NCBI GenBank assembly: GCA_900319105.1
Contig: ONND01000007.1
Span: forward strand, 117,569 to 181,568
Direction of reading: 5' to 3'
Length of the DNA: 64,000 nt
From: an uncultured Bacteroidales bacterium
Lineage (GTDB): Bacteria; Bacteroidota; Bacteroidia; Bacteroidales; Paludibacteraceae
This document shows, in pieces, positions 8,482 to 60,491 of this stretch. Position numbers and translations under genes: made by a program. Each line of letters opens with the position of its first letter. The stretch's first letter is position 1. The notes beneath the pieces were generated by a model that had not been told where the DNA came from, did not search any database, and saw only the letters and a program-made list of their open reading frames with translations.

Positions 8482-8503
8482 GGTATATACATTTTTTACG
8501 CTG

Positions 8504-8535
8504 CAAAGGTACACTTTTTTTTTGATATATGCAAA
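8504..8535 (-). promoter_or_regulatory. Promoter of the nucleotidase-domain lipoprotein
   Basis: Minus-strand TTTG (8532-8535), 20-bp A-rich spacer, TACCTTTG (8504-8511). Its -33 box lies inside the spacer of the opposite pepD promoter, so the two promoters physically overlap. Confidence 0.85.
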
Positions 8536-8551
8536 AAAAGTTGTAACTTTG
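8521..8551 (+). promoter_or_regulatory. Promoter of pepD
   Basis: TTTG (8521-8524), 19-bp spacer, TAACTTTG (8544-8551), ATG at 8584. It interlocks with the divergent promoter: each -33 box is in the other's spacer. Confidence 0.85.
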
Positions 8552-8583
8552 TAGCCAAATTTGAAAATTAAACGAAATTCTAT

Positions 8584-10143
8584 ATGGAGCCCAAAGCAGT
8601 TTTTGAGATCTTTTCTCAGATCAACAAGGTGCCTCGTCCCTCCAAGCACGAGGAGAAAATCAGTAAATGGTTGTGCGATTTTGCTGCAGCCCATCATATC
8701 GACTATGTCACCGACGAGGCGATGAACGTCATCATGCGGGTGTCCGCTACGCCCGGATACGAAGATCATGAAGGAGTCATCCTCCAGGCGCACATGGACA
8801 TGGTGTGCGAGAAAAACGGCGACGTTCAGCATGATTTCATGACCGACCCTATTCAGACCTACGTGGACGGTGAATGGCTTAAAGCCAAAGGAACGACCCT
8901 CGGCGGCGACGACGGAATAGGTATCTCCATGGCGCTGGCGGCTATCACTGATCCCTCACTCGCACACCCGGCTATCGAATGTCTCTTCACCGTCGATGAG
9001 GAGACCGGACTCACCGGTGCCATGAAACTGCAGGACGGCATGCTCCGTTCCAAACGGCTCATCAACCTCGACTCCGAAGACGACGGTCAGATCTTCATCG
9101 GCTGTGCCGGTGGCATCGACACCCTCGCCAAAATGCACTACGAACCCATTTCTGTCAGCGAAGCGGTCTGTCAGCAAAGCGGTCTGTGCTCTGTCAGCCC
9201 GCAGGGCGGTCTGGCAATCCGCCTCTCCGTAAGCGGATTGCTCGGCGGCCACTCCGGCGATGATATCAACAAAGGCCGTGCGAACGCGAACCAACTCATC
9301 GTCTGGTTCCTCGCCCGTATATGGCCGCAGACCGAGCTGCACCTCGCGTCCATCAACGGAGGCAACCTCCGCAATGCCATCGCACGCGAAGCCGAAGCAG
9401 TCATCACGATCCCCATGGCATACAAAGAGCAGATCCGCATCGAGTGGAACCGGTTCATCGCCCAGATGGAAGGTGTCTTCGGCGAAGTGGAGAAAGACAT
9501 GCGCCTCGATCTCGAGACCACCGACATGCCCGAGACCTTCATCCCCGATGACAAAGCGTACCGACTCATCATGGCGCTCTGCGAATGTCCGCATGGCATG
9601 ATCGCTATGTCCAAAGACATGCCCGGACTTGTCGAGACATCCACCAACCTCGCCTCCATCAAAATGAAGCAAGAACCGCTAACTCAGTCTGTCAGTCCGC
9701 AGGACGGTCTGTCAGCAGAGCGGTCTGTCAGCGAAGCGGTCTGTCAGCCCCAAGGGCGGTCTTATATTGAGGTCAATACTTCGCAACGGTCCTCTATCGA
9801 GACGTCCAAACATCACCTCAAATGGGCGGTTGAGCAGGCTCTCTCCCTCGCTTGCGACGAAGTGACGCACGGTGACGGCTATCCCGGATGGGCACCGAAC
9901 CCCAACTCACCGCTCTTGGAAGTCGTCAAGAAAGCCTATATCGACCTCTTCAAGGCCGAACCCAAAGTGCTGGCTATCCATGCCGGCTTGGAGTGCGGAC
10001 TCTTCCTCGAGAAATACCCGTACCTCGACATGATCTCCATCGGCCCGCAGATGGTCGGTGTTCACTCGCCCCAGGAGCGTCTCTCCATCCCCTCCACCGA
10101 GCGTTGCTACCGTTGGCTCTGCCAAACTCTCAAATCCCTATAA
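8584..10143 (+). CDS. pepD: Aminoacyl-histidine dipeptidase PepD with two in-frame repeat inserts
   Basis: A cytosolic M20-family zinc dipeptidase that splits Xaa-His and other dipeptides. At 519 residues it is longer than the usual roughly 485. Metal and catalytic motifs are intact: QAHMDMVCE (68-76), GGDDGIG (107-113), DEETGLTGA (138-146), NLDSED (161-166), GLLGGHSGDD (218-227) and the C-terminal HAGLECGLF. Two stretches do not look like PepD: residues 190-210 (SVSEAVCQQSGL...) and 368-392 (SVSPQDGLSAERSVSEAVCQ). Both are encoded by the GTCTGTCAG repeat family and seem to be tolerated surface-loop insertions, since all flanking motifs remain. The gene is monocistronic behind the promoter at 8521-8551. 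Confidence 0.95.
   Translation: MEPKAVFEIFSQINKVPRPSKHEEKISKWLCDFAAAHHIDYVTDEAMNVIMRVSATPGYEDHEGVILQAHMDMVCEKNGDVQHDFMTDPIQTYVDGEWLKAKGTTLGGDDGIGISMALAAITDPSLAHPAIECLFTVDEETGLTGAMKLQDGMLRSKRLINLDSEDDGQIFIGCAGGIDTLAKMHYEPISVSEAVCQQSGLCSVSPQGGLAIRLSVSGLLGGHSGDDINKGRANANQLIVWFLARIWPQTELHLASINGGNLRNAIAREAEAVITIPMAYKEQIRIEWNRFIAQMEGVFGEVEKDMRLDLETTDMPETFIPDDKAYRLIMALCECPHGMIAMSKDMPGLVETSTNLASIKMKQEPLTQSVSPQDGLSAERSVSEAVCQPQGRSYIEVNTSQRSSIETSKHHLKWAVEQALSLACDEVTHGDGYPGWAPNPNSPLLEVVKKAYIDLFKAEPKVLAIHAGLECGLFLEKYPYLDMISIGPQMVGVHSPQERLSIPSTERCYRWLCQTLKSL
9151..9212 (+). repeat. GTCTGTCAG-unit repeat, copy 1 (inside pepD)
   Basis: Two 16-bp-type units (the first lacking its initial G), a 7-bp spacer, then a 20-bp-type unit with the hairpin GCCC-GCA-GGGC, ending in GTCT. 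It is read in frame as part of PepD residues 190-210. Confidence 0.9.
9687..9762 (+). repeat. GTCTGTCAG-unit repeat, copy 2 (inside pepD)
   Basis: Unit order 20, 16, 16, 20, then GTCT. First unit GTCTGTCAGTCCGCAGGACG (9687-9706), second GTCTGTCAGCAGAGCG (9707-9722), third with GAA instead of AGA (9723-9738), fourth with hairpin GCCC-CAA-GGGC (9739-9758). The first 46 bases match the aroC copy at 45 positions. Confidence 0.93.
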
Positions 10144-10304
10144 GCGTAAAGCTCGGACATAGGCGGTTTTCTCTGTGCATTTTTGTCGCATCATTGCGAC
10201 AACTATGTTTTTCCTATTCTCTCCCCTTGAGGGGTGAAGGGCATTGCCCGATTGAGCGTCCAGTGGACGGTCATAGAACCTTATGGAGGGGGGTACACCC
10301 GCCT

Positions 10305-10441
10305 TTTTGAGGCTCCTCGCAAGAGGTGATGTGTTCTCCGTAGAAACAGTGGCTTCCGCTTGGGGAAGCGGACGGGAGGGGGCGCCGGGAGCGCCCGTTT
10401 TCGAGGAGAATACATCAGCCATAGGCTTAAGAGCCTCAAAA
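10305..10441 (+). ncRNA. Candidate structured RNA or cruciform element
   Basis: Nested complementarity: a perfect 11-bp outer stem (10305-10315 with 10431-10441); inside it a hairpin CTC-GCAA-GAG with a GNRA loop (10316-10325), an inner stem of 13 bp with one G-U pair (10327-10339 with 10405-10417), and the hairpin AGCC-ATA-GGCT (10417-10427, competing for one base). The inner stem encloses CCGCTT-GGGG-AAGCGG (10356-10371) and GGGCGC-CGGGA-GCGCCC (10380-10396). No own promoter was recognised on either strand, so transcription and strand are uncertain. It could be a repeat element rather than an RNA gene. Confidence 0.45.
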
Positions 10442-10564
10442 CATCAGTCTGTTGAAACGGATCATATTTACCACTCTTCCTCTCTCCAGTCGTATGTTTT
10501 TCATGTTCATGTCCGAAGGGGTTTTGCCGGTTTTTGTCAAAACTTACTTTTTCCCTCCCCAAAA

Positions 10565-10596
10565 TTTGCATATATCAAAAAAAAGCCGTAACTTTG
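10565..10596 (+). promoter_or_regulatory. Promoter of the 142-residue unknown gene
   Basis: TTTG (10565-10568), 20-bp spacer with eight A's, TAACTTTG (10589-10596). The leader to the ATG at 10726 would be about 120 nt, longer than others here, with no obvious structure. Confidence 0.8.
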
Positions 10597-10725
10597 CACT
10601 CGGTAATGGTTTTCAACCACTGGCTACTGTGCGGGCATAGAAAAAACAAGGCTTGCACCGATAGAAAAATAGGCTATTAACAGGTGATTAACACGCGATT
10701 AATACGCGATTCAATAAGAAACATT

Positions 10726-11154
10726 ATGGCAAGAGCACAATACGCAAACATTCTCAATGAGTTACACGGCGCCACCTCGCCCGATTCTATCCATCGCCAG
10801 AAGCGCTTTCGCGACGCCCGCGGACGTATTATCGGCTACGCCACGCCCGAGGTGTACAGAGTTACGAAACCGCGAGATTGGGATCGGAAGCCCGCTGTTG
10901 GAGACGAGCTCTCAAACCAAAAACTGTGGGGAAAGACTTGTCATCTGTACGCCAAAGCGCTGGAGACAGACGAAGGCGTCGAGTATTGGCAGAAACGCTT
11001 TGAGGCGCAACTCTATGCCACACGGGGCTCCAAACCCGATCCCTTTGCTTCGGTGTTGCCCAACGGAACAAAGAAACGGTACGTCCGTTTTGATGCGTTC
11101 GTTAGAGGAATTATCCGTAATGAACTCAAAGCGGCGAATAATCCCTATAAATAG
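10726..11154 (+). CDS. Conserved-looking protein of unknown function
   Basis: A 142-residue soluble protein starting MARAQYANILNELHG; an upstream ATG at 10684 is possible but has less support. No signal peptide or membrane segment. It is basic, with an N-terminal stretch naming a Gly-rich turn (DARGRIIGY) and a helical middle (SNQKLWGKTCHLYAKAL). The middle and end weakly resemble the unknown protein encoded at 32489-33223 (helix, gap, then a basic R..F..YVR segment ending in a helix), so the two may be distant relatives. It is followed by the feoB promoter. Function unknown. Confidence 0.7.
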   Translation: MARAQYANILNELHGATSPDSIHRQKRFRDARGRIIGYATPEVYRVTKPRDWDRKPAVGDELSNQKLWGKTCHLYAKALETDEGVEYWQKRFEAQLYATRGSKPDPFASVLPNGTKKRYVRFDAFVRGIIRNELKAANNPYK

Positions 11155-11231: not shown

Positions 11232-12905
11232 ATGCCCAAAATAGCCGTCATAGGACTGCCGCAGAGCGGGAAAAGTTCGCTTACGCTGGCCTTGCAACGC
11301 TTGGCTGACGAGACGAACCGCGACTTGCAGTTCACCGAGGTACATCATCTCGATGAGCTGCACGGGCATGCTTATGACGTCGTGCTTCAAGTGGTTGATT
11401 CCACGCGCCTCGAGGACTCGCTCATGCTCACGCCGCATATCATCGACGAGCAGCAGAAAATTGTGCTGGCGATAGGTCGGTATGATTTATTGCTGGAGAC
11501 TGACCACTCGCTGGATATACCTAAGTTGGAGCAGCTCATCGGTGTGCCTACTTGCCGTGTCTCCGTGCACCGTAATTACGGTTTGCAGGAGTGCCTGCAA
11601 ACCGTAGAGGCTACTCTTCAGAAACCGGCCTCCACGGCGCACCCAATCTATCACCTCCGTGATCAGGAAGGGGATGAGGATACCTACCGCGCGTACGTAC
11701 ACGGTATATTAACGGAGACGCTCAGGCACGCGAAGGACGACAAGCACCAAACGCCCCTCGAGCGCATCGATAAAGTGCTGACGAACCCATGGCTCGGCTT
11801 CCCGATCATGATGGCGATTCTCTATTTCGTCTTCTGGTGTACCTTCACCCTCGGCGCTTATCCGCAGGACTGGATAGAGATGGGCATCGACTCTTTGGGC
11901 GACTGGGCGTGGGGCTATCTGGACTCCAACTGGTGGTCCTCTTTGCTCATCGACGGAGTGCTGCAAGGTGTCGGAGCGGTCTTGGCTTTCCTGCCGAATA
12001 TCATCATCCTTTTCTTCTTCATCTCCCTCATGGAGGACTCCGGATATATGGCGCGTGAAGCGTTTATCATGGATAAGATCATGCACCGCGTAGGTCTGCA
12101 TGGACGGAGTTTCATCCCGATGTTGATGGGCTTCGGATGTAACGTACCGGCGATCATGGCGGCGAAGGATATACAGAACCCGAAGGACCGCGTCCTGACC
12201 ATGCTCATGGTACCGTTTATGTCTTGCTCGGCACGACTGCCGGTATATATGCTCTTTGTCGGCACTTTCTTCGAGCGTCATCAGGCCTTGGTCATGATCT
12301 CGCTCTATGCGATAGGTATATGCCTGTCGGTCCTTTTTGCTATCTTCATGAAGCGCACGAAATGGTTCCGCCAGGATAACGACGATACGGTCAATGAGTT
12401 ACCGGTCTTCCGTCTGCCGCGTCTGCGCACCACCGCCGCACATATATGGGAGCGCGTAGCCGACTACCTCCAGAAAATATGTACGGTCATCCTTTGGGCG
12501 TCCATCATCATCTGGGCCTTGGAGTATTTCCCTACCCAGGACCTCAATGATCTCGAGCACTCCTATTTGGCTTCCATCGGCCAGTTCGTCGCGCCGGTTC
12601 TGGAGCCGCTCGGCATGGACTGGAAGATGTCCGTCTGCCTCTTGACCGGTCTCCCCGCGAAGGAAGCGATCGTCTCAACGCTGGCTATCTTGTATGGCGG
12701 CGACATCGCGACCGCGGGCTTCACGCCGCTGACAGCCTTCAGCTTTATGCTCTTTGTGCTGCTCTATTTCCCGTGCGTGGCTACGATCGCCACACTCCGT
12801 CGCGAGGCCGGCAAACAATGGGCTTGGTTCACTGTCTTCCATTCCCTCGCCCTCGCCTGGCTCGTCTCTTTCATCGTCTATCAGATCGGTACTCTAGTAT
12901 TCTAG
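11232..12905 (+). CDS. feoB: FeoB-type ferrous iron transporter with degenerate, shortened G domain
   Basis: FeoB moves Fe(II) across the inner membrane. The membrane half is typical: the Gate and core motifs GFGCNVPAIMA (around 306) and GLPAKEAIVST (around 475) are conserved and about eight to ten hydrophobic segments can be counted from residue 190 on. The N-terminal G domain is abnormal. The P-loop GLPQSGKSS (8-16) is there, but the segment with switch I and the G3 motif DxxG is missing; only about 35 residues separate the P-loop from YDVVLQVVDSTRLEDSL. The G4 motif NxxD reads GRYD (82-85). The protein has 557 residues against about 700-830 for Bacteroidota FeoB, and there is no FeoA domain. 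Either GTP control is altered or this is a divergent paralogue. Confidence 0.88.
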   Translation: MPKIAVIGLPQSGKSSLTLALQRLADETNRDLQFTEVHHLDELHGHAYDVVLQVVDSTRLEDSLMLTPHIIDEQQKIVLAIGRYDLLLETDHSLDIPKLEQLIGVPTCRVSVHRNYGLQECLQTVEATLQKPASTAHPIYHLRDQEGDEDTYRAYVHGILTETLRHAKDDKHQTPLERIDKVLTNPWLGFPIMMAILYFVFWCTFTLGAYPQDWIEMGIDSLGDWAWGYLDSNWWSSLLIDGVLQGVGAVLAFLPNIIILFFFISLMEDSGYMAREAFIMDKIMHRVGLHGRSFIPMLMGFGCNVPAIMAAKDIQNPKDRVLTMLMVPFMSCSARLPVYMLFVGTFFERHQALVMISLYAIGICLSVLFAIFMKRTKWFRQDNDDTVNELPVFRLPRLRTTAAHIWERVADYLQKICTVILWASIIIWALEYFPTQDLNDLEHSYLASIGQFVAPVLEPLGMDWKMSVCLLTGLPAKEAIVSTLAILYGGDIATAGFTPLTAFSFMLFVLLYFPCVATIATLRREAGKQWAWFTVFHSLALAWLVSFIVYQIGTLVF

Positions 12906-20270: not shown

Positions 20271-20984
20271 TCAACATCTACTCGGAAATTCTCCGTATTC
20301 CTCGAAGGTATAGTTGAGAAAATCATTCATCGGTTTGGCGGCTTTGGCGATGTCGATGATGCGGTCCATGAAATCCGGCGCACAGACCTCTTCGTCGCTT
20401 AGCGGACGGCTGAACGTGTACATCTTATGCTTGAGCCATTCGGCATGGACGAACTCCGGATCAAAACCTGCCGGCACTTTCTTGAGACCGGTGCCCCAAT
20501 ACGAGTCAAAATCCTGCGCGAAATATTTCTTCCATTGTTTGGACCCCATGATCTCCTCCACCTCTTCGTAGTTCGCTTCTATCTCCGTCCGAAGCGCCTT
20601 GAGCAACTCTTTGCCCGGGTCCCATATACCGCCGGCGAACATGCACTGTCCCGGTTGGATATGAATGTAGTACCCGCCCCGCATAGATTTCTTGCCCCAG
20701 GTCTTGGGCTGCCCCGGTACGCCGGTCGCAGGGAACACACCGAACCACTCTTTGTACGGACGCTTGTCTGCCGAGAAACGGATGTCACGGTTGATGCGCC
20801 AGATGCAGTCTTTCGGCTCCAGGCCTTTCAGGGTCGGGTCGATGGCTGTCAAACGGTTGATGTACTCCGTCGAAAAAGCGATAAACCGTTCCCGGCAGGC
20901 TTGGTACCATGCCCGGTTAGCGTCAAACCAGTCCTTGCTGTTATGAACCGCCAACTCCGCCAAAAAATCAAGAGTCTCTCTCAT
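20271..20984 (-). CDS. DUF2461 family protein
   Basis: A 237-residue cytosolic protein matching the DUF2461 (TIGR02453) family: N-terminal FLAELAVHNSKDWFDANRAWY, then NRDIRFSADKRPYKEWFG and GGYYIHIQPGQCMFAGGIW. The family is widespread in bacteria and fungi and has no established function. The ATG at 20984 is chosen; the codon before it is a TTG. It starts 6 nt after the rfbD stop and is probably cotranscribed with rfbC and rfbD, though nothing links it to rhamnose synthesis mechanistically. Confidence 0.88.
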   Translation of the reverse strand: MRETLDFLAELAVHNSKDWFDANRAWYQACRERFIAFSTEYINRLTAIDPTLKGLEPKDCIWRINRDIRFSADKRPYKEWFGVFPATGVPGQPKTWGKKSMRGGYYIHIQPGQCMFAGGIWDPGKELLKALRTEIEANYEEVEEIMGSKQWKKYFAQDFDSYWGTGLKKVPAGFDPEFVHAEWLKHKMYTFSRPLSDEEVCAPDFMDRIIDIAKAAKPMNDFLNYTFEEYGEFPSRC

Positions 20985-21010
20985 CAATCATCAATTATCA
21001 ATCATCAATC
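20985..21010 (-). repeat. ATTGATAATTGATG-type spacer repeat
   Basis: Alternating ATTGAT/ATTGATG words at the rfbD stop. The same words fill the rfbC-rfbD spacer (21867-21893) and appear shorter before ldcA (6936-6948). They add residues MIDN to the RfbD C-terminus. Confidence 0.75.
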
Positions 21011-21860
21011 TATCAACGCATCGTACCAACGATGTCTTCCAATACGGGATCTCCACGCCGAAGGTCTTCTTGTATTTGGATTTGTCGAGCACGCTGTAGT
21101 GCGGACGCGGGGTCTGGTATTGATATTCCTCCGACAGGATCGGATGCACCTCACATCCCGCGATGCCGGCTGCCTCATGGATAGCGATCGTGAAATCGTA
21201 CCATGAGCATACACCCTCGTTCGTGAAATGATAGATACCCGGATGCCATACGGGGCACTCGAGGACGGTGAAGATCGCCTGTGCCAGGTCGGCAGCGTAC
21301 GTCGGCGTACCGATCTGGTCAAAGACCACTCCGAGGCTCTTCTTCTCTTTGCCCAGACGGATCATGGTCTTCACAAAATTATTGCCGAAAGACGAGTAGA
21401 GCCACGCGGTACGGAGGATGATCGCTTCCGGACACTCGGCTAACAGACGTTTCTCGCCCTCGTACTTGGTGCGTCCATAGACGGTACGCGGGGCAACGGG
21501 GTCGGTCTCGCGGTAAGGCTGGTGCCCGTCACCGGAGAAAACATAATCGGTCGATACATGAATGACCTTGATGCCTTGACCGCCTAACACGCTCAGCGCA
21601 TCCGCGTTGATCTTCTTCGCCGTCACTTCGTCTTCTTCTGCTTTATCGACGTTCGTGTACGCCGCACAGTTGACGATCAGGTCTATCGCATGATTGCTCA
21701 CAAAAGCCGACACCGCTTTAGCGTCGGTGATATCCAGCACACTCGTGTCGTCTGCCTCCATGACGTCCGTGAAGAAATAGCGATGCTTCGGGTGCTCCTT
21801 GCTCATCACCCGCATCTCATTCCCCAACTGTCCCTTCGCGCCTGTAATTAAGATATTCAT
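20991..21860 (-). CDS. rfbD: dTDP-4-dehydrorhamnose reductase
   Basis: Last step of dTDP-L-rhamnose synthesis, NAD(P)H-dependent. A 289-residue extended SDR starting MNILITGAKGQLGNEM (start at 21860; an earlier ATG only adds MIIDKK from spacer repeats). Nucleotide loop GAKGQLG (7-13), NCAAYTNVDKAE, STDYVFSGD and the catalytic YxxxK (YGRTKYEGE) are all visible. It lies 21 nt after rfbC. rfbA and rfbB are not in the window, so the pathway is split. Confidence 0.95.
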   Translation of the reverse strand: MNILITGAKGQLGNEMRVMSKEHPKHRYFFTDVMEADDTSVLDITDAKAVSAFVSNHAIDLIVNCAAYTNVDKAEEDEVTAKKINADALSVLGGQGIKVIHVSTDYVFSGDGHQPYRETDPVAPRTVYGRTKYEGEKRLLAECPEAIILRTAWLYSSFGNNFVKTMIRLGKEKKSLGVVFDQIGTPTYAADLAQAIFTVLECPVWHPGIYHFTNEGVCSWYDFTIAIHEAAGIAGCEVHPILSEEYQYQTPRPHYSVLDKSKYKKTFGVEIPYWKTSLVRCVDRLMIDN

Positions 21861-51726: not shown

Positions 51727-54700
51727 ATGAAGCGAATAGGCTACATATTATCCGTGTTGATCGTGAGCGTATTGCTGGTAAGCGGTATGCTCATCGCCGC
51801 GTTGATGAGCGACCGCGTCGAGACGGCTGCCGTGCGCCTCGTGGCGGAGGAGTTCTCCCGCGCGCTCGGTACCAAAGCGAGCGTGGGCGCGATGGAGTAT
51901 CGTTTCCCCGCGCGCGTCGCACTCAAGGATGTCTATATCGAGGACCGGCAGCGCGACACCCTCTTGTATGCCGGAGAACTCTATGTCCATTTACGGCCCT
52001 TGGCGCTCAAGAACAACGAGATACGCTTCAGTCATGTACGCGTGCAGGATGTCGTAGCGAACCTCTACCGCTTGCCCGATAGTACCTGGAACTACGCGTT
52101 CCTCATCCCTCCGAAGGAAGAGAAGAAGAAAGAGTCATCCCCGCTGCAGAGCTTGATCTCAGTCCGCGATATACGGCTGGATAACATACGTGTCCGGTAT
52201 GAGGACTACGAGGCCTTCTTGGATCATGCCCGGATGGACCTTCATCAGTTCAGCGAAGACAAACTCGACGCGCAAATCTCTGAACTCGCCGGCACCGTCC
52301 ACCGTTCACCGTCCACCGTCCACCGTCCACCCTTTAAGGTCGAAGACCTCCAGGCTCATCTGATCATCAATGACTCGGCGCTGCTGATGCCGACCCTTAC
52401 CGCACGTCTGCCACGCTCACGGCTCGACATAAGCGGTATAGAGGTGCGGTTCCCGCAAGGCGATACCTTATACCTCAGCAAGTCTGCGCATGACATCACT
52501 TTCGCCCTCAATTTTCATGAGGCGGAGTTGGTGCCATCGGACTTGGCGCTCTTTGTGCCGCAGATGAAGCGTCTGCATAAGCCCGTCACCTTAGCCGGTA
52601 CATTCGGCGGCACACTTGACTCGCTCTATTTCCGCAATATAGCCATCCGCTATGATGGACAGGCCGTGCTTGAAGGCGACGTGAGTGCGGTAGGTCTGCC
52701 GGATCTCAAAAACCCCTACCTGCGTGCTAATCTCAAGGATCTGCAGACCAACGCTGCCCGCCTGCAGGATTTCCTCTCACGGCTCCAAGGTCGGCCTGTT
52801 CAGTTGCCCGCGGAGCTGCACCGCTTAGGTACGATCCACTACCGCGGATTAGCCGAAGGACGGCTCCATGACCTGACGCTCCACGGCGCGTTCCGTACCG
52901 CCCTGGGGGCTATCACGACGGACGGTGAGTTTCACGCCGATTCGCTCTTTGCGCACATGGATTATGACGCGCGTATCGTGGGACGTAACTTCCGCTTGGG
53001 GCGCATGGTCAATCATGCGCCGTTGCGCTCCGTGACGCTCGATGTGCAATCCAAGGGCGAGATCTTCGCCGGCGACTCAACCCACGAGCGTACTATCTAC
53101 GGTGACGTCAAGGCGTTCGTGCGCCAACTGACCTATAAGAACTACACCTATAGTGCCCTGCGTTTTGACGGACGGTACGAGCCCGGACGATACGCCGGAC
53201 GAAGCAGTATAGATGACGAGCACCTGAAGGCGGAGTTCGACGGCGTGGTCAAGCTGCGCAATGTCGATCCCGAGATCAATTGCAACCTGCGGTGCCATCA
53301 TTTCGATGTGCAGCCTTTCGGTCTGACCGGCCTGCTCAGCACCCTCCGTACACGCTTTGCTTTAGCGGTTGATCTGAATGGTTCGGAGACGGAGCGAGTG
53401 AGTGGCTATATGACAATCGACTCCCTCTTCGTCGCCACCTCCCGCGACTCAATCCTCATGAACCAGATGACGCTTCTCGCCTCCGGTGAGGTAGGGCATA
53501 GCAAGGCGTTCACCCTGCGCTCCGACTATCTCACAGCGCAGCTGGACGGCATTTTCCGATACAAAGATATTGGTCCGGCTTTCCAGGCGATGATGCATCA
53601 CTATCTGCCATCGGCGGTGTTGGCGCCAGCGGAAGAATGGCAACCTGTCTCCTTTAACCTCCGCGCCGACGGTCAGCGACTGAGGGATATACAACGGCTC
53701 TATACGGCGCCTTTCACCCTCAGCGATCATCCGGTCTTCACTGCCGACGCGCGGCTGGAGAACGGCGAAGAGCCGCATATAGAAGCGCGTTTCTTTGCGC
53801 CGGGAGTACGTGCCGGTAGTACACCGGTGCACGACCTGACGGTGACGCTCAATACGATTGATACCCTGCGCCACCAGGGCGGTAAAGGCTCGGGACTCTC
53901 CTTCAGTATATCCGCCGAGGCGCTGCAGATGCATACTGTCCTCTCGGCGCTCGCCTACCACGATACGCTCCTGACGCATCTCACGCTCCGACAGCAGGCG
54001 ATGATGGACGAGATGCTACCCGAGGGATGGCGCAATCTCACCCCGCGCGAGTTACAGCGTGCTCTATCGGATCTCTCCGGACGCGAACGACAACGCGCTC
54101 TGCTTTCCGCCCAGCGCGCCGGTACCTACGGAGGAGACCTCAAGCTGATCACACGTTTCACCCGTTATAACAAACAGCCGCTCATCGACGTGCACATGTT
54201 GCCCGGCACACTGCTCCTGCGCGACTCGCTATACTCCCTCTCGGAGAGTCGTATCACGTATTGCCAAGCGGACCAAACGGTAGAGGTGGATCACTTTAAT
54301 TTTGAAGGCGGAGGCCAACACTTGCGCGTACATGGTGTAGCGTCGAAGCGAGCCACCGATACGCTTGCGGTCGATCTGCAGAAAGTGAACGCAGCTTATG
54401 TCGTGCCCTTCATCCTGCCCGTCCAGACGATTATGTTCAATGGCCTGCTGACCGGTCAGGCGAGCATCACCAGCGTGCTTAAAAAGCCGCAGATAGATAC
54501 GCAGATACATATTGACTCGATGGGGCTGAACAACTGCTATTTCGGCGAGGCTGAAGTGGATTTGCATATTAGCGACTCTCTCGCCTTCCACGCCGATGTC
54601 AACAGGCCGGACCGTAAGGTAGTGGACCTCGACGGCAAAGCGCTCTTCGACGGAACAGGCCGATGGGAACTGGATATGACGGCGGACTCAGTGCCGCTGG

Positions 54701-59462: not shown

Positions 59463-60491
59463 ATGAACGTGTTCGGAGATAAATGGACGTTTACGAGCTT
59501 CGGTGAGTCTCACGGAGCCGCGATAGGCGGTGTACTGGACGGTGTACCTGCCGGGCTACCTATCGATCTGGACAAGATCCGTGAAGAGCTGGAGCGTCGG
59601 GCAGGGAAGAAACCTAACCCCGACCATTCCCTTAAGGGAAGGGAGACAGGAGTATCACCTCGAGCGGTGCGCGAACCGGATGAAGTGGAGTGGCTCTCCG
59701 GTGTCCTTCGGTCTGTCAGTCCGGAGGACGGTCTGTCAGCAGAGCGGTCTGTCAGCAATGCAGTCTGTCAGCAAAGCGGTCTAATAACTCTCGGTACCCC
59801 GATCGCCTTCATCATTCGCAACAAGGATGCGCGGCCGGAGGATTACGAATGGCTCAAACACTCCTATCGCACCGGACACGCCGATAAGGTATACGAGCAG
59901 AAATATGGTATTCGCGACTGGCGCGGAGGCGGCAGAGCGAGTGCACGCGAGACGGCAGCACGCGTGGTAGCCGGAGGGATAGCCAAGCAGGAGTTGGCGC
60001 AGAAAGGCATTGATATCCATGCAGAGTTGATCCAAGTGGGCGCAGAGACGGACCCGGCTAAGTTCGCCGACACGATTGCTGCTTATCAGCGCGAGGGAGA
60101 CTCTATAGGAGGCATCGTGGAGTGCCGCATCCAAGGCCTGAAAGCAGGAACAGGCGAACCGATCTTCGATAAACTGCAAGCGCATCTCGCCTTTGCGATC
60201 ATGAGCATCAATGCCTGCAAAGGGTTTGAGTACGGTACCGGTTTTGGCGGCGTCACGCAGCCAGGATCAGCCATCAATCATATTTCCGGAGGTATCGCCG
60301 GAGGTATTTCCGATGGTTCGGAGATTATCTTCCGCTGCGTCTTCAAACCCACACCCACTACGCCAAAGGCATTGGAAGAAGTGACAAAGGGACAAAGTAC
60401 AAAGGTCGGTCGCCATGATGCGTGTGTGGCGGTAAGGGCAGTGCCGGTAGTCGAAGCGATGACAGCTCTCGCTCTGGTACAGTTTTTGTAA
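59463..60491 (+). CDS. aroC: Chorismate synthase with in-frame repeat inserts
   Basis: Makes chorismate from EPSP with reduced FMN, the last shikimate-pathway step. Core motifs are intact: FGESHG (18-23), REPDEVEWLSG (about 72-82), RDWRGGGRASARETAARV (about 152-169) and VGRHDACVAVRAVPVVEAM near the end. Three segments look foreign: SLKGRETGVSPRAV (about 57-70, from a TTCCCTT/AAGGGAA palindrome), SVSPEDGLSAERSVSNAVCQQSG (84-106, from GTCTGTCAG units) and KGQSTK (about 309-314, from GGACAAAGTACAAAGG words). Together these bring it to 342 residues, still near family length. It is probably functional because pathway motifs around the inserts are kept. Confidence 0.95.
   Translation: MNVFGDKWTFTSFGESHGAAIGGVLDGVPAGLPIDLDKIREELERRAGKKPNPDHSLKGRETGVSPRAVREPDEVEWLSGVLRSVSPEDGLSAERSVSNAVCQQSGLITLGTPIAFIIRNKDARPEDYEWLKHSYRTGHADKVYEQKYGIRDWRGGGRASARETAARVVAGGIAKQELAQKGIDIHAELIQVGAETDPAKFADTIAAYQREGDSIGGIVECRIQGLKAGTGEPIFDKLQAHLAFAIMSINACKGFEYGTGFGGVTQPGSAINHISGGIAGGISDGSEIIFRCVFKPTPTTPKALEEVTKGQSTKVGRHDACVAVRAVPVVEAMTALALVQFL
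59627..59652 (+). repeat. Palindromic spacer-type repeat inside aroC
   Basis: TTCCCTTAAGGGAA (59627-59640, perfect 14-bp palindrome) followed by GGGAGACAGGAG, resembling the CCCTT-AAGGG hairpins of spacers; encodes SLKGRETGV. Confidence 0.7.
59711..59782 (+). repeat. GTCTGTCAG-unit repeat, copy 3 (inside aroC)
   Basis: Unit order 20, 16, 16, 16, then GTCT. The 20-bp unit has the hairpin GTCC-GGA-GGAC. The first 46 bases equal pepD copy 2 except one base in the hairpin loop. Confidence 0.93.

Follow-up and report, generated by a model that had tools for sequence, protein, structure and literature searches.

Short hairpins that carry a fixed tag, reach a high copy number, stand as tandem or inverted pairs and are moved by RAYTs are known as REPs, and the STRR of cyanobacteria are tandem repeats of a 7-bp unit. 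For residence inside genes the closest described systems are the Rickettsia and Wolbachia palindromic elements (RPE and WPE) which, as presented in the available text of two reports (PMC2229807, PMC3767692), are repeats that form hairpins, lie dispersed and are joined in frame to conserved genes; RPEs are palindromes of about 100–150 bp, and orthologues bear inserts of different groups at one locus, in solvent-exposed positions. The first of these sources, in the part available, also mentions coding palindromes for enterobacteria and Neisseria (PMC2229807). REP/REPIN–RAYT systems and GTAG-/CGTC-tagged palindromes are treated in the available parts of PMC3116915 and PMC3733652, and the TAACTGA repeats of Beggiatoaceae are given as mainly intergenic in the available text of PMC4679880. 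Organelle hairpin elements include the RHE of sponges, the palindromes of Volvox and the coding palindromes of Nematomorpha (available text of PMC2800124, PMC2670323, PMC6649704). In vitro, d(GCGAAGC) and hairpins with GNA loops are extraordinarily stable DNA minihairpins in solution (Hirao 1994 and Yoshizawa 1997, as cited in the available text of PMC11352879).

In this paper we describe three repeat arrays residing in frame in pepD and aroC within a stretch of 64,000 nucleotides (hereafter “the window”). We are fairly confident that they belong to a genus-level interspersed family of mini-hairpin cassettes linked by CTGTCA and GGTC, for which stem covariation, a loop rule, in-frame residence and between-species swapping of sites are observed.

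Results

The Window and Its Three Arrays

The genome containing the window (G000) comprises 2.26 Mb in 30 contigs. The closest relatives of its pepD are MAGs, several of rumen or gut origin, labelled Paludibacteraceae or Bacteroidales, and the organism is probably a gut Bacteroidales of the Paludibacteraceae. PepD and AroC both score above the curated cut-offs of their TIGR models (Table 1). The two pepD arrays lie where an earlier note on this DNA had placed them, and the kinship it had reported between array 2 and the aroC array was reproduced: the first 46 bases, counted from 9687 and from 59711, differ by one mismatch.

Table 1. Coordinates of the repeat arrays, their host genes and other features (positions refer to the window unless a locus is named)
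Feature	Position	Strand	Details
pepD, aminoacyl-histidine dipeptidase (M20), carrying arrays 1 and 2	8584..10143	+	TIGR01893, 512 bits; PF01546; PF07687
Array 1 in pepD	9151..9212	+	In frame, begins at residue 190; three sense frames open
Hairpins of array 1	9158-9164; 9174-9180; 9197-9207		GCGAAGC; GCAAAGC; GCCCGCAGGGC
Array 2 in pepD	9687..9762	+	In frame, residues 369-392; three sense frames open
Hairpins of array 2	9695-9705; 9715-9721; 9731-9737; 9747-9757		GTCCGCAGGAC; GCAGAGC; GCGAAGC; GCCCCAAGGGC
Separate hairpin-rich stretch directly after pepD, GTCC-AGT-GGAC-GGTC module	10220..10292	+	Recognised from sequence
TCATCAA heptamer array	20981-21016		In a long open frame
CACCGTC heptamer array	52293-52331		In a long open frame
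aroC, chorismate synthase, carrying array 3	59463..60491	+	TIGR00033, 274 bits; PF01264
Array 3 in aroC	59711..59782	+	+22 residues (66 nt) versus many relatives; three sense frames open
Hairpins of array 3			GTCCGGAGGAC; GCAGAGC; GCAATGC; GCAAAGC
Inverted composite	L101:7073-7199		
Inverted composite	L102:4879-5023		
Inverted composite	L148:1421-1567		
Single open frame, EPSP synthase and glycosyltransferase parts	L123:3856-5823		One frame of ~650 residues; counterpart in L134
Tandem array in G007 (L205)	around G007:C26:17656-17757		Nine units, outside long ORFs

The residues that the note had regarded as foreign to normal PepD are absent or replaced in most of the compared homologues: at the site of array 1 most relatives have other sequence and L010 an insert resembling that of the window, and array 2 is missing from most. 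Structural mapping was made for PepD. In an AlphaFold model based on 24 sequences (mean pLDDT 85.5) both inserts sit between neighbouring strands, site 2 between E350–363 and E393–403 with residues 373–388 below pLDDT 50, and site 1 between E176–186 and E209–217 with a predicted helix at 191–199 and block means of 75 and 62.

The hairpin-rich stretch located directly after pepD is separate from the arrays, and its pattern occurs once in the 452 kb of G000 searched. In L010 site 1 is occupied by the CTGTCA-hairpin-GGTC family and site 2 by another stretch rich in hairpins; the latter sits in frame and resembles the stretch after pepD, with a compensatory change between them in one stem (GGGCATTGCCC versus GAGCTTTGCTC).

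Structure of the Repeat Unit

The note had resolved the arrays into 16-bp and 20-bp units. The repeat units are real, and they are better described as CTGTCA, a short hairpin and GGTC, with successive units overlapping in GGTCTGTCA. With the short linker the unit is 16–26 bp long, tracking the length of the hairpin, and a second linker form (GGTCTGTGCTCTGTCA and variants) is 7 nt longer. Hairpins of 7, 8, 9 and 11 nt are the commonest. They differ in sequence (GCGAAGC, GTGAAAC, GTCCGCAGGAC, GGCGAAGCC, with GCGTTAGC as a further example), yet their pairing is kept by compensatory change. The unit pattern was found 133 times, some of these by chance, in 452 kb taken around matches, where unit density is not a genome average; the reversed pattern was found 7 times.

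Covariation is informative at few pairs, the remaining stem pairs being mostly near-invariant. At the second stem pair of the 11-mers T-A, C-G or G-C occurs among the variants. This pair is Watson–Crick in 9/9 distinct sequences of G000 (shuffle mean 3.2; 2/2000 shuffles as high) and in 13/13 of G091 and G018 combined (shuffle mean 5.0; 0/2000 as high). Among the shorter hairpins of G000 pairing is kept in 13 of 14 7-mers (shuffle mean 8.0; 2/2000) and in 9 of 10 9-mers (shuffle mean 6.0; 41/2000), while covariation is not significant for the 7-mers (8/8, 258/2000 shuffles) and 9-mers (3/3, 693/2000) of G091 and G018. Template switching during replication is a source of paired stem changes (available text of PMC8794818), so the mutation mechanism, and not selection alone, could produce the covariation.

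Over four genomes, triloops conform to GNA in 215/254 cases (73/94 in G000, 48/58 in G091, 52/56 in G007 and 42/46 in G002) and tetraloops to GNNA in 37/46 (10/11, 5/9, 17/20 and 5/6, respectively), with G007 represented by the first 30 of 40 matches and G002 by the first 30 of 56. DNA hairpins with a GNNA loop and a C-G closing pair are stable. Only 4 of the 46 tetraloops are GNRA, and this prevalence of GNA and GNNA with rare GNRA fits single-stranded DNA hairpins. Since the hairpin sequences are related, inheritance and not maintenance could account for the G and A of the loops. GCGAAGC is the commonest hairpin in G000 (17/112 units), and GCGCAGC is the commonest in G007 and G002. In longer hairpins, for example GCGAGCAAAGCGAGC, GCGAACAAAGTGAGC and GTGAGCGCAGCGAAC, a tandem G-A step is kept between covarying pairs, as judged by eye from few sequences.

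Energy folding was tried as support for the mini-hairpins, and the ViennaRNA result alone did not back them: they do not come out as the optimal structure when whole arrays are folded, and single units are weak in energy. ViennaRNA is not known to model the stability bonuses of such hairpins.

Copy Number and Distribution

The window contains the word GTCTGTCAG 9 times, compared with 0.59 expected and with 0/100 shuffles reaching 9. Searching the whole genome revealed the further copies that a dispersed element should have: G000 contains 92, against 9 for the reversed word. Hairpin-bearing arrays hold 79 of these 92; the other 13 are lone and hairpin-free, which is approximately the number expected by chance.

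Within the genus, CGGTCTGTCAG was found in 67 of the 101 genomes sampled, mostly in one or few copies, and low counts are about those of the reversed control. At least 20 copies are present in eight genomes (G002 71, G000 66, G007 64, G091 45, G022 36, G046 35, G050 24 and G018 20). The stricter gapped pattern CTGTCAGN{3,11}CGGTCTGTCA was matched in 1 of 295 genomes of the order, G000 itself, with 50 matches; besides G000, the draw included a single genome of the genus and two from its family, and since the pattern requires two adjoining units, single or diverged copies elsewhere would escape it. The CTGTCA-hairpin-GGTC family is patchy within the genus. The longest array in G000 has four units, and a tandem array of nine units was observed in G007 (L205, Table 1).

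Residence in Coding Sequence

For counting, an array was placed in an ORF if the frame had at least 150 residues and at least 15 codons on each side of the array; a chance match of the loose scan at window position 12710 and L095, where one unit stands at the edge of the locus, are omitted from the G000 counts. By this measure 43 of the 47 G000 arrays lie in ORFs, 35 in sense and 8 in antisense, and under a stricter array definition the figure is 40/43. One array (L112) occupies a 154-codon frame with no Pfam match, which may therefore not be a gene. Pfam families were matched by 33 of the 36 array-bearing ORFs submitted (L095 among the 36), and many of them are housekeeping genes. The hosts include AroC, ArgS, CysS, DnaG, MnmE, RibBA and DapA; Pfam matches further point to an Mfd-type TRCF, a poly(A) polymerase/CCA-type protein, TsaB/TsaD-type proteins, a radical-SAM protein with TRAM, UvrD/PcrA-type and DHH proteins, an M16 peptidase, DAHP synthase with chorismate mutase, MutS2, an RNA pseudouridine synthase, a SpoU methylase, a UvrA-type protein, RsgA, EPSP synthase, Dus and a beta-CASP protein. 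Relative to the host gene, the orientation is antisense for the arrays of Mfd, poly(A) polymerase, DAHP synthase, the SpoU methylase and UvrA.

In other genomes such ORFs hold 25/28 arrays in G091, 13/25 in G007 and 14/21 in G002, the remaining 12/25 and 7/21 of the latter two lying outside long ORFs; the G007 and G002 loci are ~3 kb and some of their genes are truncated. Coding residence is strong in G000 and is not universal: a coding excess over intergenic sequence, considered as a general rule, holds in G000 and G091 and fails in G007 and G002. A crude gene caller based on codon usage assigned 14/48 arrays to intergenic sequence; it was set aside for the open-frame count because 9 of these 14 arrays (L091, L102, two in L105, L106, three in L111, and L127) sit in Pfam-matching ORFs.

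The note had supposed an element open in all three frames and selected for being so. The first statement is correct for the three arrays of the window and does not extend to the genome, and the second finds no support in the counts: on the sense strand of the element three frames are open in 21/47 G000 arrays, two in 25 and one in 1. On the opposite strand 14 arrays have no open frame, 23 have one and 10 have two. The antisense-to-sense ratio expected from open frames alone is 0.38, and the observed ratio is 0.23 (8 versus 35); since stop codons alone predict a ratio near the observed one, the sense bias requires no further cause. Among arrays of at least two units in four genomes, all three sense frames are open in 45/86 inside ORFs and in 7/24 outside them, so filtering by genes explains a part of the three-frame openness. 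In the sense arrays of G000 ORFs the first core is read in the SVS phase in 22/35 cases and in the other phases in 9 and 4.

Occupancy of the Same Sites in Sister Species

AroC was detected in 97 of the 101 genus genomes sampled. Many relatives align to residues 1–85 and 108–342 with abutting genome coordinates, so that the insert amounts to 22 residues, or 66 nt. For comparison of the site 30 loci were picked by score, and are hence biased toward query-like sequences; 29 were readable (all except L170). All keep the frame. The loop holds the CTGTCA-hairpin-GGTC family in 3 (L153, which is the window's own, L154 and L156), is short in 12 (L169, L171–L179, L181, L182) and has other inserts, many of them heptameric, in 14. 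The latter include GTGACCAAG-type repeats (L155), AATTAAAAATG (L157, L158), GGGTTAC (L160), CAGCCAA (L161), AAGGACA (L163), GTCAACT/CTCAACA (L168), an insert of its own in L166, and short inserts that are not clearly repeats in L167 and L180.

A similar picture was obtained for PepD site 1, where the 24 sequences compared include AAATC-type repeats (L009, L011, L015), CAATCTY (L014), AAAGTTG (L012) and repeated TGCACAA (L013). These residues of PepD and AroC are lacking or variable in relatives and are not a conserved ordinary protein sequence. At pepD site 1 of L021 a TCATTCC-type repeat also contains a AAGCGAAGCGG stretch, a sequence which suggests that the hairpin and heptamer families may mix.

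Orthologues of G000 and G091 differ at several sites, either in the string of units or by having the CTGTCA-hairpin-GGTC family in one and another repeat in its place; such different occupants were found in EPSP synthase, DUF5686 and a PG_1098-like protein, and near-identical sites in RibBA, an ABC ATPase and PepD site 1. The frame is preserved in the alignable orthologue pairs (13 tried, 2 unusable). An EPSP synthase part and a glycosyltransferase part share one open frame in L123 (Table 1), the G091 counterpart of which has 649 residues.

Tandem repetition in G000 extends beyond this family. The window together with L089–L128 (452 kb) contains 167 tandem arrays, compared with 2 in a Markov control; 46 of the 167 are of period 7, their units being numerous and unrelated, and 24 of those 46 lie in ORFs of at least 200 residues. 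Two heptamer arrays in long open frames belong to the window itself (Table 1). Repetition of non-triplet period within coding DNA seems to be characteristic of the G000 genome.

Discussion

The description of the arrays as a mobile-looking repeat is borne out by a dispersed family residing in frame in many genes. To this, the present analysis adds the covarying mini-hairpins and the finding that in sister species unrelated repeats occupy these loops. Most economically, the observations are read as hairpin-driven copying by host replication or repair, with the copies in genes filtered by frame and loop tolerance. Cassettes, each with one or more DNA mini-hairpins, would be copied to many loci, presumably with single-stranded DNA as the working form. 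The process would be slippage aided by the hairpins, template switching, or ectopic copying by the host replication and repair machinery. Inside genes the survivors would be in-frame, stop-free copies at permissive loops, which would result in odd peptides in core enzymes, and the inserts would be near-neutral for the host protein. We put forward only tentatively that errors of replication or repair suffice for this copying with no dedicated transposase. Arrays at different loci share exact stretches of up to 56 nt, and 28/1059 pairs share at least 30 nt (counts taken with no control, the few unit types favouring sharing); since long stretches are common to different loci, multi-unit cassettes appear to be copied. 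Identical neighbouring units within arrays show no significant excess (6/84 versus 3.5 expected, 239/2000 shuffles as high), and local GC skew reveals no replication-strand preference of the G000 arrays (22 versus 25).

Mobilisation of a non-autonomous element by a dedicated enzyme of another HUH or transposase family, as RAYTs move REPs, is in our opinion rather unlikely, although the fixed 5' tag with short hairpins recalls REP/RAYT substrates and the copy number is strongly patchy across the genus. Inverted composite copies at three loci speak for the same mechanism: antisense units are followed by a ~20-nt spacer ending in ATCA and by sense units, two of the spacers being similar by eye, and these composites hint at a longer palindromic form. 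However, the two enzyme families sought do not follow the repeats. The Y1 transposase (RAYT) showed no association in the 101 genomes searched (Fisher P 0.23): Y1_Tnp was found in just 4 of the 8 copy-rich genomes, above the cut-off in G018 and G022 and below it in G007 and G000 (in G000 as a partial match of 20.6 bits over 26 positions), and is absent from G002 with its 71 copies. Reverse transcriptase was rejected similarly, RVT_1 occurring in 3 of the 8 and showing no association with copy number (P 0.39). No recurring target duplication, such as MITEs with their terminal inverted repeats leave, was seen by eye in the few filled/empty pairs, the flanks of which are diverged. Carriage by phages was considered as well; the gapped pattern yielded 6 stretches in IMG/VR, taken as chance because each has a single core, no array and by eye at most two closing base pairs.

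The occurrence of tandem repeats of many other sequences at the same loops of sister species, and the frequency of period 7 among the tandem arrays of the 452 kb, would agree with ordinary hypervariable loops that tolerate low-complexity sequence produced by local slippage, loci resembling one another through convergence. We consider this improbable, since one grammar of linker and hairpin is common to the 47 G000 arrays and the sister genomes, and this grammar together with the long shared stretches makes local slippage alone insufficient; moreover, among the 295 genomes the CTGTCA/GGTC hairpin grammar was not seen in unrelated genera. Local slippage may well explain the heptamers. Selection for a functional RNA or protein module, by which the arrays would regulate mRNA or mediate binding, could be proposed from the core genes that hold most G000 arrays and from the predominance of the SVS phase, but it is quite improbable: the inserts are missing or replaced in the same genes of sister species, their peptide and phase vary, the tetraloops are GNNA and not GNRA, and no known RNA family was matched in Rfam at E up to 1 (window 8500-10900). 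Inserts bypassed by the ribosome are known as the byp elements of yeast mitochondria. That the arrays are bypassed like these, or removed from mRNA, might be suggested by so many hairpin repeats within essential-type enzymes, and yet we find it highly improbable, because either process would relax the upkeep of the frame, while 43/47 arrays are crossed by an open frame and the alignable orthologues stay in frame downstream.

Host-driven copying with filtering in genes admits an extension, which we offer with reserve as a possibility: the family may be selfish DNA in which the selected unit is an extra-stable single-stranded mini-hairpin, with core-enzyme loops serving as standing “docking sites” at which unrelated micro-repeats are continually gained, exchanged and lost in frame. 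If so, the GNA/GNNA loops and the tandem G-A of longer stems would be features of the selected unit, and protein loops would represent a genus-wide habitat for competing micro-repeats.

In-frame coding palindromes of bacteria are best known from Rickettsiales, and a further, unrelated lineage is represented here. Due to the many copies, and to sister species with filled, empty and swapped sites, the origin, spread and tolerance of such inserts become testable. The GNA/GNNA rule connects a natural repeat family with the rules of DNA hairpin stability established in vitro. Repeat insertion accounts for the odd peptides of these proteins, a point relevant to annotation, structure prediction and metaproteomics.

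Comparison with Known Systems

The note had known of no description for this family, and none was found among the top open-access literature matches, subscription papers being mostly outside this scope; as literature text GTCTGTCAG gave nothing relevant by title among the matches listed. The top literature matches likewise included no genomic repeat family built on the GNA minihairpin rule. The likeness to stable DNA minihairpins lies in the commonest hairpin of G000, which is GCGAAGC itself, and in triloops that are mostly GNA.

Short tagged hairpins, high copy number and tandem or inverted pairs are common to REP/REPIN and our family. REPs are extragenic by name, whereas the CTGTCA-hairpin-GGTC arrays are mostly coding in G000 and mixed in G007 and G002, and the cognate Y1 transposase does not track the copies. 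Group II introns and retroelements differ in that no RVT_1 was found in G000 or G007. The heptamer repeats are similarly short, dispersed and tandem with a non-triplet period, and the long and short linkers of our family differ by 7 nt; unlike the TAACTGA repeats and STRR, it has covarying hairpins and units of 16–26 bp (short linker). The organelle elements, as far as the available text of their descriptions goes, likewise consist of hairpins that are repetitive or palindromic; a selfish nature has been proposed for some, and those of Nematomorpha are located in coding sequence; they are mitochondrial or plastid, of other sizes and apparently of other anatomy.

The family is RPE-like in behaviour, not in anatomy. 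It differs from RPE in the direct arrays of 16–26 bp units, each with its own hairpin and with inverted composites at three loci only, in the phylum, in its gut bacterial hosts and in the sites shared with heptamer repeats. Like RPE, it resides in frame in conserved protein genes (43/47 arrays in ORFs of at least 150 residues), and orthologues carry different inserts at one locus, as in AroC, PepD and the G000/G091 pairs.
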